Assembly (NCBI GenBank): GCA_022510815.1
Contig: JAFLST010000014.1
Location: 1 to 61,000, forward strand
Length of the DNA stretch: 61,000 nucleotides
Reading direction: 5' to 3'
Origin: Christensenellaceae bacterium
GTDB taxonomy: Bacteria > Bacillota > Clostridia > Christensenellales > Aristaeellaceae
The notes below the pieces were generated by a model. That model searched no databases, was not told the DNA's origin, and saw only the letters and a list, made by a program, of their open reading frames with translations. The position numbers and the translations under genes were made by a program. Shown piece after piece: positions 9,203-21,217 of this stretch (position 1 is its first letter; each line of letters begins with the position of its first letter).

Positions 9203-9240
9203 AAATACTGGATTTTTAGTCTTTGGAAGGGTTGAGAGAG

Positions 9241-11298
9241 ATGAAGAAGTCGAGAATTCTCTGGACGCTCATCCTGATTGCGGCGATTGCCTTGACGGTC
9301 GCGGCTTTAGCAGAAGAAATGGGCATCATGCCGCTGGAAGTGGAGGAGCATGAGCACTTTGTTATGTGCTCCAGCGAAGACAAGACGGTCTGCTATCTGT
9401 GCGGAGAAGCCCATGAAAACATGCGGATTGAGCATGGCATCGTCAGCGACAAAGTTTATACCAACGGCAAGGATCACTGGTGGCAGTGCTCCTGTGGGGA
9501 CAGGGAATTTGACCGCACGGAGCACAGCCGGTACTGTGATGAAGACCGTTGCCTTGTTTGCAACGCGACGTATACGGGCGACAAAAAAGAGCACAGAAAC
9601 CTTGAGCTTGGGCATGACCAAAGCGGACACTGGTATCAGTGCGTGAATGCGGATTGCGGGGATATCGTCAAGCAGGAAGAGCATTCCCGTGACTGCGGAC
9701 AGTCGGTGTGCTCTTCGTGCCCTGAGTATTATGACGGCGACCGCAAGACGCATGCGCTCAGCAAGTATGGCTGGGATGAGAACGGGCACTGGCAGGAATG
9801 CTTCTGCGGTGAGGAGAAGGGTGAGCCGGTGGCGCATAGCGTGACATGCTTAGATCCTGATCACTGCAAGAGATGCGGCGCTGAGGTGTCCGGCATTGAG
9901 CCGACGCATTCGGGCAGCTCGAGCGGCGTTTATGAATCTGACAGCAGCAGCCACTGGCTGATTTGCGACGAATGCGGCAAACGGTACAACGAGGGCGCGC
10001 ACCGTACCAGCGATGGTGCGGAGGCAGGCGTGTGCGCTGTTTGTGATCGGGAGTTTGGTTCGGCGGACCCGTCGCCCTCTGTTGACCCCGAAGCGACGGA
10101 TGATCCCAACGCGACGACTGACCCTGAAGGCACGAAGGACCCCGAGGGCACGCCCGATCCCGAAGGCACGAAGGACCCCGAGAGTACGCCCGATCCCGAA
10201 GGCACGCAAGACCCCGAGGGCACAAAGGACCCCGAGGGCACGCCGGATGTTGAAGGCACGCCAGACCCTGAGGGCACAAAGGAACCCGAAGGTACGCATG
10301 ATCCTGAGGAAACACCGGAGCCTGCTGATACCCCTGAGCCTGAAATACCGGACACGCCTGAGGAGACAACGCCTCCCGAGGTGCAGCTGACGCCTGAAGT
10401 GACGATGACGCCCGAGGTAACGTCGACGCCCGAGATCACGCCGACGCCGGAAGTATCGCCTGTGCCGGAGGAATCATCCGTGCCGGAGGAGACGGCAACG
10501 CCCGAACCGACGGAAGCGCCTGAAGAAATGTCAACGCCTGACGTAACCGACACGCCCGAGCCGACGGAAGCCCCGGAGGCAACGGACGCGCCGCAGGAGA
10601 CGGAAGCTCCCGTGGCAACGGATGCGCCGCAGGAGACAGCGACCCCTGATGTGACGGACGCGCCGCAGGAGACGGCGACCCCTGAGGCGACCGCAACGCC
10701 CGCTCCGACGGCGACTCCCACGAGAAAGAAGAGCACCGTGGCCACAGCTGCGCCAGCGGAGGAGGGCTTCATCAGCCGCTTCCGGGGCAACAGCAGCACG
10801 GCGGCGGCTGGTGATCTGCTGTCCGGCGGGGTCGAGGAAACCGTCACGCTGACCATGGCGGCTGACGGCGAGGAGCCTGAATATGACGGCAGCGTGCTGA
10901 GCGTTTATCCGGCAGGCATGCGCGACGACAACGTGGCCATTTGCCTGAGCAGCAGGTATGAACCGGACGCGATGCTCGGCTTCACCGCATGGCAGGCGAG
11001 CGTCAATGAAGCGGCGGAGCTGCGCGGCACGGCGTCGTATCGCGACTTTGTCGGGCTGGCGCAGGCACTGGTGCAGAGTCTGCTGCCCGGGAAGACCGCG
11101 AACGAGGTCGACGCGATGATCGTGCGGCTGCTGCAGAGCGGATTTGACGGCACGCTGGAGACCAGCGGCGCCAAGGCGATCGACTTTGACGACGACGTCG
11201 AGGGCGAGGTTGTGGGCTATCTGACCGAGGCAGGCTATGAGTTCTTCATCGTCCTGCGGGACGGCGAGGTTGACCTGCTGGTTCGCGAAATGGCATAA
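9241..11298 (+). CDS. Secreted repeat protein with Cys/His units and a DPEGT linker
   Basis: A 685-residue exported protein, function unknown. Order: signal peptide (MKKSRILWTLILIAAIALTV, cut near ALA at 23-25); residues ~35-265, four or five Cys/His-rich units with the core HWxxC..CG followed by a histidine and a CxxC pair (DHWWQCSCG, GHWYQCVNADCG, GHWQECFCG, SHWLICDECG), plausibly metal-binding or disulfide-bonded; residues ~275-500, a Pro/Glu/Thr linker, first DPEGT hexads, then PEVT/PEAT; residues ~505-685, a compact acidic C-terminal domain I do not recognise. There is no LPXTG or C-terminal membrane anchor. Start chosen at the ATG with GGAAGG upstream; the TTG at 9223 is part of that site. 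Alone between promoter and terminator. Confidence 0.8.
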   Translation: MKKSRILWTLILIAAIALTVAALAEEMGIMPLEVEEHEHFVMCSSEDKTVCYLCGEAHENMRIEHGIVSDKVYTNGKDHWWQCSCGDREFDRTEHSRYCDEDRCLVCNATYTGDKKEHRNLELGHDQSGHWYQCVNADCGDIVKQEEHSRDCGQSVCSSCPEYYDGDRKTHALSKYGWDENGHWQECFCGEEKGEPVAHSVTCLDPDHCKRCGAEVSGIEPTHSGSSSGVYESDSSSHWLICDECGKRYNEGAHRTSDGAEAGVCAVCDREFGSADPSPSVDPEATDDPNATTDPEGTKDPEGTPDPEGTKDPESTPDPEGTQDPEGTKDPEGTPDVEGTPDPEGTKEPEGTHDPEETPEPADTPEPEIPDTPEETTPPEVQLTPEVTMTPEVTSTPEITPTPEVSPVPEESSVPEETATPEPTEAPEEMSTPDVTDTPEPTEAPEATDAPQETEAPVATDAPQETATPDVTDAPQETATPEATATPAPTATPTRKKSTVATAAPAEEGFISRFRGNSSTAAAGDLLSGGVEETVTLTMAADGEEPEYDGSVLSVYPAGMRDDNVAICLSSRYEPDAMLGFTAWQASVNEAAELRGTASYRDFVGLAQALVQSLLPGKTANEVDAMIVRLLQSGFDGTLETSGAKAIDFDDDVEGEVVGYLTEAGYEFFIVLRDGEVDLLVREMA
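10120..10320 (+). repeat. 18-bp tandem repeat coding DPEGT[KP]
   Basis: About ten imperfect 18-base units encode Asp-Pro-Glu-Gly-Thr plus one residue, varying by third-base changes and a few substitutions (DPEST, EPEGT, DVEGT). The array can gain or lose units by slippage while keeping frame. Confidence 0.85.
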
Positions 11299-11315
11299 TC
11301 AAGGCAAATGAAAAA

Positions 11316-11345
11316 CCGCCCGGCATTACGCCGGGCGGCTATTTT
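11316..11345. terminator. Bidirectional intrinsic terminator
   Basis: CCGCCCGGC (11316-11324) pairs perfectly with GCCGGGCGG (11330-11338), followed by CTATTTTG; A residues on the other side let it serve the convergent pectinesterase gene as well. Confidence 0.75.
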
Positions 11346-11350
11346 GTATG

Positions 11351-12781
11351 TCACAGCATGGAGAGGATGGTCTGCACTGTCTGAACGGCGCTGCCGGCCG
11401 GATGAAGACGCTCCAGATCAATCAGCTTCACGCCCCGGTATCCGGCGAGATCGCGCGTGGCCGCAGGATAAGCGCCGTCAGGACAGGCGGAGGTAAGCAG
11501 TACCGGTTCTGCACCCTGACGGCGAGCCGCGTCGATGAACATGCTCAGGTATTGCGGGAAGGTCACCCGCGCGACCGTACCCTTCACGGGGTCAGCGTCC
11601 GCGTCGTGCAGGCCGAACTGAATCAGCAGTCTGTCGCCGGGACGCAGGCACAGCTCGATCAGGCTCAGCCGCTTCTGCCCAATATAGTCCTTGCTGGAGC
11701 AGCCGGGTACGGCGCAGTCCTGCACGAACACGTCTCCTGCCAGCGCGCTCAGCGCTCTGCCATAATCAGCGGTCTCGTCGCCGCAGAGGAACCATGTGGA
11801 TACTCGCTGCTCGGGATGCCACTGGTCGGGGCCGGAGAGCACTTCGCCGATGGTGATCAGCGCGGCTTCATCCGCCGTCAGGCGCTTCTGCTTCGGGTGC
11901 CGGGCTGACTGATCTGCCCTTGCGCCGCGGGTGCCATATTCGCCGTACCGCTCCGTGACGACCCGGGTTTCGTCCCAGTCCTCAAAGCCCACGGCGTTGA
12001 CATGCTCGTCCATCTCGCAGTCGAGGAACACCGTTCGGGCATAGGCCCGCCATGGACGGCCCAGATACGCCATGCCTTCGCCGCACGCGCCCGTCAGGCG
12101 GCAGCGATGGAAGACGAAGCCGTGGGGCGACACCTCCGGCGTGTTGGCTGCGGTGTACCAGCCGCCGCGCTCGTTCATGAACAGCGTGCAGCGCTCGAAC
12201 CAGCAGCGGTAGGAGCCGAAGATGAAGTCCACATCGCCCTGAATGAAGCAGTCTTCAAAGTACTGCCGGCCTGTGACCGGGGGACAGTCGTTCACCACGG
12301 GCTTGCCGTCGGGTACCCTGTGGGGCAGCGCGTCCTGCTGCACGGAGGGCATGGTCGGGCCGCAGAACAGCGTGTCCTGATGCGCGATCATCCGGCAGTT
12401 GTGCCATACGCCCCGGTCGCCCGCCGCATAGACAGCCACCGCCTGTCCGACCTCACGGCCGTCGCCCGCGTCGTTGCGAATGGTCAGGTTCTCGACCTCC
12501 ACATGGTTTCCTGTCACCAGCATGGTGTAAGAGAGGAAGGTGCCCTTCTCCTGCCCGTTTTCGTCGAGGTCCTTGGCGCAGCGGCTGGTCGTGATGACCG
12601 TGCGGTCCCGCGCCTCGCCGATGATGCGGATGTTGTCCTTGTTGACGATAACCCGCTCATGGTATTCGTCCATGCGCAGCAGCAGAATCACCGGCGCCCG
12701 GTATCCGTCGGGTACCGCGTCGATGGCCTCCTGAATCGAGGTGAAGTCCCCCGAGCCGTCTCTGGCAACGATGTAAAGCAT
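11351..12781 (-). CDS. Pectin methylesterase (CE8) fused to a degenerate SGNH/CE12 domain
   Basis: Residues ~1-300 form a CE8 pectinesterase with its catalytic set intact: Q113, HQD (Q135, D136), VDFIFG (D185) and GRPW (R242, W244). It would remove methyl esters from homogalacturonan oligomers. Residues ~328-476 align by eye with the neighbouring CE12 protein (PGCSSKDYIGQKRL against PGRSTKSFLSEGRL; LIQFGLHD against LIQFGHND), but the nucleophile block reads GDET instead of GDST (E336), FGHND has become FGLHD, and the C-terminal DxxH is missing. The second domain should therefore be inactive as an esterase. There is no signal peptide, so the enzyme is cytosolic. Its ATG follows directly on the stop codon of the CE12 gene. 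Confidence 0.9.
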   Translation of the reverse strand: MLYIVARDGSGDFTSIQEAIDAVPDGYRAPVILLLRMDEYHERVIVNKDNIRIIGEARDRTVITTSRCAKDLDENGQEKGTFLSYTMLVTGNHVEVENLTIRNDAGDGREVGQAVAVYAAGDRGVWHNCRMIAHQDTLFCGPTMPSVQQDALPHRVPDGKPVVNDCPPVTGRQYFEDCFIQGDVDFIFGSYRCWFERCTLFMNERGGWYTAANTPEVSPHGFVFHRCRLTGACGEGMAYLGRPWRAYARTVFLDCEMDEHVNAVGFEDWDETRVVTERYGEYGTRGARADQSARHPKQKRLTADEAALITIGEVLSGPDQWHPEQRVSTWFLCGDETADYGRALSALAGDVFVQDCAVPGCSSKDYIGQKRLSLIELCLRPGDRLLIQFGLHDADADPVKGTVARVTFPQYLSMFIDAARRQGAEPVLLTSACPDGAYPAATRDLAGYRGVKLIDLERLHPAGSAVQTVQTILSML

Positions 12782-13444
12782 TCAGTTCACCTCCGGCGCG
12801 GCAATCAGCCCCAGCCGCCGCAGCTCCGCGGCAACCATGCGGGCCCATGCTTCCGCGCCTGCCCGCCGGGTGTGCGTGTTGTCGGTGCAGCCGTCAGGAT
12901 AGTCCGGGTAGACGCCCGGCTCCACATGCATGAACAGCGCCCGGCTGGCCTCCTCGCCCAAGCTGCTCACATGGGCATGGCTCAGGGCGCACATGTCGAT
13001 CAGGGGAACGCTGCGCTGGGCCGCCAGCAGACGGACGGCGTCGGGATAGTCGCCGTGGGTGGGCGTCAGCCTGCCATCCACGAAGTTCCGGCGGCAGATG
13101 GGCGTAAGCAACACAAGCACAGCGCCGCAAAGCCGCGCTGTGTCCACAAAGATGCTCAGATTGTTGAAATAGGATGTATAGGGGTCGGTATGCCGCCAGA
13201 CGAGGTCGCTGCCGTCGTTGTGGCCAAACTGGATCAGCATCAGGTCGCCCGGCCGGATTTCCCGTTCAATGGCCTTAAGCCTTCCCTCGGACAGGAAGGA
13301 CTTGGTGCTGCGCCCGGGCATCGCCGCGTTGACCACCGTTACGCCGGGGATCAGTTCTCCCAGCACCTGACCCCAGCCGCAGATGGGCGCGCGCTCCGGG
13401 GCATAGGCCGCGGCGGTGGAATCGCCGCAGAGGTAGAGGGTCAT
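12782..13444 (-). CDS. SGNH hydrolase, rhamnogalacturonan acetylesterase-like (CE12)
   Basis: A 220-residue esterase that should remove O-acetyl groups from pectin-derived oligosaccharides. All SGNH blocks are present: GDST with nucleophile S9, the glycine of PGRST (44-47), FGHND with N76, and DNTH giving D188 and H191. There is no signal peptide. It lies between the GH28 gene (10 bases upstream) and the CE8 fusion gene (no gap), in a three-gene minus-strand operon. Related to YesT/RhgT of Bacillus subtilis; acetyl-homogalacturonan rather than rhamnogalacturonan as substrate is equally possible. Confidence 0.9.
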   Translation of the reverse strand: MTLYLCGDSTAAAYAPERAPICGWGQVLGELIPGVTVVNAAMPGRSTKSFLSEGRLKAIEREIRPGDLMLIQFGHNDGSDLVWRHTDPYTSYFNNLSIFVDTARLCGAVLVLLTPICRRNFVDGRLTPTHGDYPDAVRLLAAQRSVPLIDMCALSHAHVSSLGEEASRALFMHVEPGVYPDYPDGCTDNTHTRRAGAEAWARMVAAELRRLGLIAAPEVN

Positions 13445-13454
13445 GCGGGCCTCC

Positions 13455-14714
13455 TCACGAGATCAGCGTGACACTCTCGTCCACGTCCAGCTCCTCGCCG
13501 CGGACATGGACAACCTTCACGCCGCGCAGGTCCACATCCCGGGCATTGCGCAGGAACAGGCCCGCGCCCTGCATCTTGGGGCAGCCATCCATCATGGCGG
13601 GGCAGTCGGCCTTGCCGTCCTTCTCCATCTCCACCAGCACATCGCGCATGATGACCCTTTCGACGGGCATCTCGCTCAGACCGTAGAAGAAGCCCGCGCA
13701 GGCCGTGCAGCCCCGGGCCAGCACGCCGGTGATGGATACGTCGCGCAGGGCGGGCGTGCTCTCGTCCACCGGGTAAGGAGCCTTGTCCCAGACGCGCTTT
13801 TCATTGCCGCGCTCGCCGCAGAAATAGTACATGTTGAACACGAAGGGGCACATCACCCGCTCCATGATCAGGTTGGTCAGGCGCAGCCCTTCCACCACGC
13901 CGCCGCGGCCCCGGCGCGTCTTGAGCCGCACGCCCCGGTCGGTCTCGTAGAAGATGCAGTTGCTGACCAACACGTTCCGGATGCCGCCGCTCATCTCGCT
14001 GCCCAGCACCACGCCGCCGTGGCCGTGCAGGAGGTGGCAGTTGCTGATGATGATCCGCTCGCAGGGCTGACGGTCCGGCGTGTCCTCAGTGCCGGACTTG
14101 ATGGCGATGCAGTCGTCGCCCACGTCGATGGTGCAGTCATGGATGCGCACGTCCTGACAGGCGTTGGGGTCGATGCCGTCGGTGTTGGGCGAGTCGGCCG
14201 GGTTATTGATGCGCAGGCCCCGGATGACCACGTCCTGGCAGCGCAGGGGATGCACCGTCCAGCAGGGGGAATTGGTCAGCGTCACATTCTCAAGGGTGAT
14301 GTGGCGGCAGCGGTTGAAGCACACCAGATAGGGCCGGATATGCTTCGCGTCGCCTTTGCGGATGAAGCGCCACCAATAGCCGCCCTGACCGTCGATGGTG
14401 CCGCCGCCGGTGATGACGATCTCTTCCTCGTCCTCAGCATAAATGCAGGGCTGAGGCAGGATTTTCGGGATGCCCTCAAACTCCAGCGGAATCTTCGGGA
14501 AAGCCGCCTCGTCCCGCAGGAAGCGGATCGTCGCGCCGGACTGTATGTCAAAGGTCATGTGCCCGCAGAGCTGGATCGGCGCTGTCAGATAATCGCCCGG
14601 GGGCACCGTCAGAACGCCGCCGCCCTGACGCCGAAGATCGGATATTGCCGCGGAAAAGGCTTCCGTCCAGTCGGCGCGGTTGTGGGACAGGGCCGCATAG
14701 TCCCGGATATTCAT
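13455..14714 (-). CDS. Polygalacturonase, glycoside hydrolase family 28
   Basis: A 419-residue right-handed beta-helix hydrolase that cleaves alpha-1,4 bonds between galacturonates by inversion. The GH28 signature is complete: SPNTDGID (D179), VGDDCIAIKSG (D200, D201), GHGGVVLGSE (H232) and RLKT (R263, K265). No signal peptide is present, which fits an exo-acting enzyme used on imported oligogalacturonides. The ATG follows GGGAGGA. First gene of the operon GH28-CE12-CE8, read from a promoter facing away from uxaBA. Exo or endo action cannot be settled by reading alone. Confidence 0.92.
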   Translation of the reverse strand: MNIRDYAALSHNRADWTEAFSAAISDLRRQGGGVLTVPPGDYLTAPIQLCGHMTFDIQSGATIRFLRDEAAFPKIPLEFEGIPKILPQPCIYAEDEEEIVITGGGTIDGQGGYWWRFIRKGDAKHIRPYLVCFNRCRHITLENVTLTNSPCWTVHPLRCQDVVIRGLRINNPADSPNTDGIDPNACQDVRIHDCTIDVGDDCIAIKSGTEDTPDRQPCERIIISNCHLLHGHGGVVLGSEMSGGIRNVLVSNCIFYETDRGVRLKTRRGRGGVVEGLRLTNLIMERVMCPFVFNMYYFCGERGNEKRVWDKAPYPVDESTPALRDVSITGVLARGCTACAGFFYGLSEMPVERVIMRDVLVEMEKDGKADCPAMMDGCPKMQGAGLFLRNARDVDLRGVKVVHVRGEELDVDESVTLIS

Positions 14715-20420: not shown

Positions 20421-21173
20421 TTATGCCCGCTCGTCCGCTCCCTGCGCCCGCAGAGCCGCCATGGCCGCGTCGTTCTGTGCCAGCCAGTCCAGACACTCCT
20501 CGGACAGCAGCGCCGCGTATGCGCCGCCCAGCTCGCAGAGCCCCCGGGCAATCAGCCCCGCAAAGGCCACCGCCCCGGCAGGCTGGAGATGCGTGTTGTC
20601 CGACTGGCCGTCCGGGAAAGCGGGATAAGCTCCGGCGGGCAGGTTCATGTAATACCTGACGCGGGCCTCCTCGCCCAACTCATCCACCAGCCGCTCCGAC
20701 ATGGCGGTCAGGTCGATCAGCGCGACACCCAGCCGCTTGGCGGTCCTCCGGGCAGATGCGGCCCACAGGTCATGCCGGTACTTCGCGCCGGGAGCGTTCC
20801 GATGATATCGGGTCACCGGCGTGATGATGACAGGATGCGCGCCCTTGCTCCGCGCCACGCTGACAAACCGCTCCAGATTCTCCGGAAAGGCCGTCTCCGG
20901 GTCGGCGTAGCGCGCGGGGTCCTCGGGCTTTTCATCGTTGTGCCCGAACTGGATGAACAGGAAATCCCCCGCCGTGATGGCGCTGTCAATCGCCGCCAGC
21001 CGTCCCTCGTCGATGAAGGACCTGGTGCTGCGGCCGTTCTCCGCGTGGTTTTGAATCACCACATCCGGGCGGCGGACATAGCGGTCAAGCTCCTGCCCGA
21101 TGCCTGTCTGGGGATACGTCGCGATGCTGTTCTGCCTGACGGTCGAGTCGCCTGCCCAGAAGATGGTCGTCAT
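20421..21173 (-). CDS. SGNH hydrolase, rhamnogalacturonan acetylesterase-like (CE12), second copy
   Basis: A 250-residue esterase with all catalytic blocks: GDST (S10), NGRST, FGHND (N79) and DNTH (D192, H195). It is longer than the first copy (220 residues) by a C-terminal helical tail and an insertion around residues 80-135 (including ITPVTRYHRNAPGAKY). No signal peptide. Start at the ATG at 21173 with AAAGGAG upstream; nine extra in-frame codons before it carry no ribosome site. Read from its own promoter, divergent from eda, and followed by the MATE gene. Likely deacetylates a different pectic oligosaccharide from the first copy. Confidence 0.9.
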   Translation of the reverse strand: MTTIFWAGDSTVRQNSIATYPQTGIGQELDRYVRRPDVVIQNHAENGRSTRSFIDEGRLAAIDSAITAGDFLFIQFGHNDEKPEDPARYADPETAFPENLERFVSVARSKGAHPVIITPVTRYHRNAPGAKYRHDLWAASARRTAKRLGVALIDLTAMSERLVDELGEEARVRYYMNLPAGAYPAFPDGQSDNTHLQPAGAVAFAGLIARGLCELGGAYAALLSEECLDWLAQNDAAMAALRAQGADERA

Positions 21174-21217
21174 AAGCGTCTCCTTTGCATTGCTGCGCAT
21201 GGACTGTGTGCAGGATG

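Follow-up and report, generated by a model that had tools for sequence, protein, structure and literature searches.

Why would an enzyme domain that has lost its catalytic residues stay attached to a partner that has kept its own? The question is raised by a gene in a 61,000-nucleotide stretch of DNA (hereafter the window; positions 1 to 61,000 of contig JAFLST010000014.1, assembly GCA_022510815.1) from a Christensenellaceae bacterium placed by GTDB in the Aristaeellaceae. The gene encodes a CE8-type pectin methylesterase domain followed by a CE12-type esterase domain of the SGNH class. It descends from a CE8-CE12 fusion, has intact CE8 residues and has lost the catalytic residues of its CE12 half. 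Our preferred reading, to which we give a probability of roughly 0.6, is that this pseudo-CE12 half is specific to the lineage and has persisted, folded but without catalytic activity, as a partner of the only CE8 domain detected in the genome.

The pairing of CE8 and CE12 is itself already in print, since a two-domain CE12-CE8 esterase of Bacteroides xylanisolvens PUL49 is mentioned in the available excerpt of PMC4769552. That enzyme, like the window protein, unites the two families in one polypeptide, but it is named in the reverse order and, in the same excerpt, comes with no mention of a dead domain (PMC4769552). No description of a CE8-pseudo-CE12 protein was found among the papers listed from the open-licence PMC literature. 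For the CE12 motifs, background was taken from the available part of PMC9487903.

Table 1. Positions of the features discussed, in the window and in loci of related genomes (L numbers); lengths of CE8-dead proteins are from stop to stop.
Feature	Location	Coordinates	Strand	Remarks
Convergent ORF	window	9223-11298	+	691 aa
Terminator-like G+C hairpin, then T run	window	11311..11340	-	just past fusion stop; read by eye
CE8-pseudo-CE12 fusion ORF	window	11351-12781	-	476 aa
Pseudo-CE12 (SGNH) half	window	11354..11818	-	residues 322-476; E336, GLHD, no DxxH, five internal whole-codon gaps relative to L148
Predicted CE8 pectin methylesterase half	window	11846..12781	-	residues 1-312; catalytic Q113, Q135, D136, D185, R242 intact
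Standalone CE12	window	12782..13444	-	intact (GDST, GHND, DNTH); immediately upstream of fusion
GH28 polygalacturonase	window	13455..14714	-	PF00295, 4e-44; first gene of apparent three-gene operon
Second standalone CE12	window	20421..21200	-	GDST, GHND, DNTH; from ORF list, Pfam and NCBIfam
CE8-dead protein	L149			359 aa
CE8-dead protein	L150			359 aa
CE8-dead protein	L155			326 aa
CE8-dead protein	L179			396 aa
CE8-dead protein	L180	2396-4048	-	551 aa; full-length CE8, QQDDR replaced by QETQE; CE12 set intact
CE8-dead protein	L181			261 aa; scarcely any CE8 remaining
CE8-dead protein	L182			484 aa
CE8-dead protein	L183			581 aa
CE8 stub with intact CE12	L033	5446-6522	-	stub cut in frame to ~130 codons, lacking the catalytic residues, omega 0.095; one of two sister species
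CE8 stub with intact CE12	L034	1459-2535	+	as L033; the other sister species
CE8 module with GAF domain	L219	1066-2502	-
CE8 module with GAF domain	L220	1029-2468	+
CE8 module with GH88-type domain	L013	1465-3585	+

The gene and its surroundings

By its Pfam match (PF01095 Pectinesterase, E 2.8e-51, 174.5 bits against a cut-off of 27) and its catalytic residues, the N-terminal half is identified as a pectin methylesterase, and the closest solved chains in a structure-sequence comparison were pectinesterases. The five residues that the initial annotation had listed as intact were all found; they are the catalytic Gln, Gln, Asp, Asp and Arg, a set present in 65 of 68 aligned fused proteins, the window's included. 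Conservation extends to 120 of the 122 near-invariant CE8 columns. A double frameshift at an odd stretch (residues 140-170) is excluded, since full-length homologues have the same stretch. The gene is the only PF01095 match in its genome.

In the apparent operon (Table 1), the stop codon of the upstream CE12 gene abuts the start of the fusion (TGAATG), and the CE12 protein matches the NCBIfam PaeY model at 9.9e-22, under that model's cut-off. Besides the fusion, the genome has two CE12-type genes. By inspection, the N termini of the fusion, CE12 and GH28 proteins have no signal-like hydrophobic stretch, so that the set is taken as cytoplasmic, and the window enzyme would probably work there. 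Nearby uronate ORFs are ones that we take to be UxaB-, UxaA- and KDPG aldolase-like. The protein encoded by the ORF convergent with the fusion begins with a signal-like stretch, contains Cys/His motifs that recur and has a long linker made of DPEGT-type repeats; it has no Pfam match above cut-off.

Loss of the catalytic residues in the CE12 half

The C-terminal half matches Lipase_GDSL_2 over residues 333-458 with 19.2 bits, under the Pfam cut-off of 32.9, unlike an intact relative, which clears it at 40.9 bits. Its resemblance to the adjacent CE12 protein, initially seen by eye, was borne out by a 44% identity over residues 328-460 (E 1.6e-15), and its identity to intact fused CE12 domains is 54-60%. 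A profile built from six fused domains (the window's and five intact ones) matches the CE12 rhamnogalacturonan acetylesterase of Aspergillus aculeatus (1deo, 3c1u) and YxiM (2o14), with E values of 6e-11 to 7e-16, and the CE12 homology of the half is not due to chance because 72 other fused-type proteins could be aligned. These homologues of known structure are SGNH enzymes with a triad, whereas the window domain has lost the nucleophile, the oxyanion Asn and the DxxH motif.

The three departures read there by eye (GDET with E336, FGLHD and the missing DxxH) were all confirmed by alignment. At the nucleophile position, 66 of 68 aligned fused proteins have Ser and one has Phe, Glu being confined to the window protein, which excludes GDET as a family feature; the initial annotation had proposed looking for this motif in many homologues as support for a selected function, a check that came out negative, the window protein standing alone in this respect. 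The oxyanion Asn is found in 67 of the 68, GLHD replacing GHND in the window, and DxxH in 64, the three absences other than the window's (L080, L097, L106) being in proteins that run into the end of their locus. With its nucleophile, oxyanion Asn and DxxH loop lost, the SGNH half of the window protein is, judging from its sequence, catalytically dead.

Loss is not confined to these motifs. Among 66 near-invariant SGNH columns, 37 are kept in the window, 12 are deleted and 17 are substituted, against at most six substitutions in any other member. The substituted positions include S336E, R361C, S365D, F366Y, H391L, N392H, E394A, K395D, T434P and H435D, and most of them adjoin the SGNH blocks; the motif roles given to them here are those that we take SGNH residues to have. 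A hidden frameshift or lost tail is excluded, as roughly 50 bp lie between the fusion stop and the point where the convergent ORF ends.

Could all this be an assembly or sequencing artefact? The feature comes from a single genome, a draft of 77 contigs, but an error process would not preserve the frame or the residue repertoire of the family (see below), nor would it be expected to leave 17 near-invariant substitutions and five whole-codon gaps beside a normal CE8 half. An artefact is thus scarcely credible, and an error at the GDE codon, which had been named as a possible refutation, cannot alone explain these substitutions and internal gaps.

CE8-CE12 fusions in the Aristaeellaceae

Among the matches listed from 308 genomes of the family, 73 distinct fused-type proteins (deduplicated by SGNH segment) were distinguished, 62 of which carry both catalytic sets intact, while the eleventh of the non-intact ones (L178) is a contig-end fragment. 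The CE8-CE12 fusion is therefore common in the family, contrary to the rarity of the domain pair that was initially implied. The eroded CE12 half is specific to the window lineage: it was found in the window protein only, and the same listed matches include no other lineage with the loss. To be included, a protein had to reach 190 bits in comparison with an intact SGNH half, a cut-off that is biased against eroded halves, and the window protein, which scored 160, was added by hand. A total of 54 proteins were excluded in this way. Apart from the window protein itself, the members of this group that exceed 330 aa are L213-L215 (fusions cut by the locus end) and L047, L139 and L183 (CE12 in long frames), so that no second eroded fusion is hidden among the 54.

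Intact fusions (e.g. L148 and L167) have the same domain order and linker as the window protein and are 55-72% identical to it (full-length matches listed, both sets intact), but their own CE12 half has the GDS, HND and DxxH that the window lacks. Their frames measure 540-661 aa from stop to stop, against 476 in the window. Across 18 draft genomes of the same genus, a full-length fusion occurs in eight (the window's included), a fusion with a hollowed CE8 in three and neither in seven. A contig scan with two peptide patterns, both within CE8 and hence blind to CE8-dead proteins, found 317 relatives, 80 of which were kept; 63 of these (L046-L108) extend beyond residue 400. Many record titles of the scanned loci refer to rumen or gut samples, a few to Christensenellaceae. 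The one Phe nucleophile mentioned above belongs to L138 (G221), which is identical to L067; its remaining motifs are intact and its two nearest relatives carry Ser.

Selection on the inactivated half

In a joint codon fit of 13 sequences with shared branch lengths, omega on the window branch was 0.075 in the CE8 half (background 0.073) and 0.205 in the SGNH half (background 0.081), and for the latter both equality with the background (2dlnL 12.5) and omega = 1 (2dlnL 42) were rejected. When the halves were fitted separately, omega of the SGNH half was 0.096, indistinct from background (2dlnL 0.1) with a dS of 2.34 that is near saturation, and omega = 1 was rejected as well (2dlnL 31). Because of this lower value, the relaxed omega depends on the sharing of branch lengths. 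Relaxation on the window branch is thus a matter of which fit is used, while an omega below 1 across the whole branch is firm. The amino-acid branch ratio of SGNH to CE8 is 2.46 in the window against a median of 0.87, the third highest of 61 sequences, in a first tree that omitted seven of the 68, namely three proteins with a hollowed CE8 and four truncated at the end of their locus.

These values bear on a rival explanation, recent neutral decay, according to which the fused CE12, redundant with two standalone CE12s, would be a pseudogene-like tail that has yet to acquire a stop. In keeping with it, the joint-fit omega exceeds the background and 29 of the 66 near-invariant SGNH positions are substituted or deleted. 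In addition, on what is one branch only, a constrained period up to the loss followed by neutral evolution could yield 0.205 as an average: by arithmetic from the joint fit, neutrality over ~13% of the branch would suffice, and after such a short neutral time the absence of stops would be unremarkable (P ~0.18).

What speaks against neutral decay is the nature of the changes. Of 145 variable SGNH columns, the window has a residue seen in relatives at 90 and an unseen one at four, 51 being deleted. Four unseen residues at the 94 remaining columns compare with a leave-one-out mean of 4.1 (maximum 19) for the relatives, whose counts span all variable columns and not just the window's 94; the reference comprised 71 sequences, L138 and the window being excluded. 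In neutral simulations, which begin from the codons of three living relatives and not from a reconstructed ancestor, at least 17 invariant losses together with at most four unseen residues were obtained in at most two of 1000 runs per setting at five distances (joint P <=0.002). At a distance of 0.05, at most four unseen residues are common taken alone (P 0.28 to 0.34) and invariant losses average 5.5 to 8.3; at the 0.15 to 0.2 needed for 17 such losses, neutrality predicts ~15 to 20 unseen residues against the four observed. That all five internal gaps relative to L148 are whole codons also counts against neutral decay, which we regard as unlikely but still a serious contender.

The erosion of the CE12 half does not look random, and the half has been under constraint averaged over the branch. 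This average takes in the time before as well as after the loss, and among the matches listed no other lineage has the same loss. The view of this half as a retained but dead SGNH domain, put forward in the initial annotation, thus holds in that the domain is dead and, by omega, repertoire and gaps, has not been drifting freely over the branch; the accompanying idea of an unusual domain pair does not.

CE8 proteins with another partner or none

The existence of CE8-only relatives favours neutral decay and counts against a retained partner, because it means that CE8 can do without the CE12 half. A CE8 tree contained 20 further CE8 entries: 17 unfused, two of 700 aa with another domain and one fusion missed by the filter (L094). 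The unfused proteins interleave with the fusions, in a tree that has no outgroup and is of low resolution. No CE12 relics downstream of CE8-only genes were found by tblastn with eight SGNH halves (E 1e-3) at 61 loci; these comprise 40 loci plus L013-L016 and L109-L125, with some genes present twice, several having <400 bases past the stop and L230 cut inside CE8. CE8 proteins can manage after a clean loss of CE12, or if they never carried it, a condition that is not seen in the window lineage. A Niallia taxi plasmid match that seemingly covered both domains turned out to be an ORF of 307 aa with no second domain.

Other C-terminal domains were also encountered behind the same CE8 module and linker: L219 has a GAF domain instead of CE12, as does L220, which by eye is almost the same protein, and L013 has a GH88-type domain. 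C-terminal partners seem to be exchanged at the end of the linker.

Shape of the erosion and predicted fold

The five internal gaps relative to L148 measure 1, 10, 12, 26 and 10 codons, and the tail is shorter by 6. On the predicted fold, they fall after strands 1, 4 and 5, and in SGNH enzymes the side with these strand ends bears the active site. The helix-to-strand turns of the model (secondary structure as read) have no gap in the comparison with L148. Against L167, the same alignment gives an extra one-codon gap after residue 349, which would sit in such a turn; this gap is missing in a second alignment and in a third is shared by all relatives except L046. Strands 329-334, 352-355, 384-388, 425-429 and 452-454 remain in the predicted model (pLDDT 74-96 by block, mean 78.8). 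Since nine intact homologues were included in its input alignment, the fold is partly borrowed and the model is no proof that the window sequence folds. It nonetheless shows the five-strand alpha/beta core, and the pseudo-CE12 domain may well fold.

A possible role for the retained half

The ancestor of the gene was a bifunctional CE8-CE12 esterase, probably active on imported pectin oligosaccharides. CE12 catalysis was lost in a lineage where two standalone CE12 genes remain, and deacetylation would fall to their products. If the dead half is indeed kept as a folded partner, the alpha/beta core would have been retained as a non-catalytic partner of the CE8 half, under a pressure to keep the chain folded beside the only detected CE8, possibly amounting to no more than the avoidance of a misfolded tail. 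The pseudo-CE12 half may thereby act as a structural or interface module, contributing to stability, solubility or oligomer contact.

It is also conceivable that the domain has taken up a specific new function such as oligogalacturonide binding or docking of the adjacent CE12, the initial annotation having suggested binding of acetylated pectin or such docking. The signs of a kept fold (predicted model and residue repertoire) would agree with this, as would the location directly behind an intact CE12 gene, and there is a precedent in the GH28 pseudoenzymes of pectin-feeding beetles, which according to the available part of PMC6549527 have a physiological effect. Like the window domain, these are dead pectin-active enzymes kept in a pectin pathway; however, they are whole gene copies in insects and belong to another enzyme family, whereas the window has half of a fusion (PMC6549527, same part). 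Binding in the old pocket is disfavoured because near-invariant residues beside the SGNH motifs (R361C, K395D, T434P, H435D) have been lost. Moreover, no relatives with the same change exist among the matches listed, so that there is no conserved new surface to point to, and a CE12 gene lies directly upstream in 13 of the 15 intact-fusion loci displayed, an arrangement that is therefore not peculiar to the dead domain. Recruitment is in our opinion improbable.

The reverse case: fusions with a dead CE8 half

Loss in the opposite half, with the CE12 set kept and CE8 residues lost, is seen in eight of the 73 fused-type proteins among the matches listed (Table 1). In a tree of the CE12 half these are scattered; by our count CE8 residues were lost on some five to seven occasions, certain nodes of the tree being weakly supported (38 and 25). 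In two sister species (L149 and L150) every CE8 deletion is common to both, and the CE8 loss therefore predates their split. Over the 132 codons of their CE8 stub, gapless between the pair, omega is 0.095 (2dlnL 48.4 against omega = 1). This is direct evidence that a dead half can be maintained by selection in the CE8-CE12 family.

A more general proposition, to which we give about even odds, is that in-frame deletions or point changes can hollow out either half, while purifying selection maintains what remains as a structural partner of the live one. If this is true, the window protein is the CE12-dead mirror of these CE8-dead events. Most work on pseudoenzymes concerns whole gene duplicates; in this family a live and a dead half share one chain, and intact relatives together with losses in both directions would constitute natural variants on which the remaining use of a dead catalytic domain could be tested. 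Counting CAZymes by domain matches can also overstate activity, 10 of the 73 fused-type proteins (matches listed) having catalytic residues missing from one half.

The idea that redundancy alone decides which half dies is only partly borne out: another pectinesterase match exists in six of the eight CE8-dead genomes, G280 and G182 have a CE8-dead copy and no pectinesterase match elsewhere in the genome, and intact fusions are found both with and without a second CE8. The L180 protein is a second fusion copy within one genome, with four of its five CE8 catalytic residues replaced. The synonymous divergence between L149 and L150 amounts to 0.66 over the CE8 stub against 0.15 over the CE12 half, a contrast that may be due to recombination or gene conversion in the latter.
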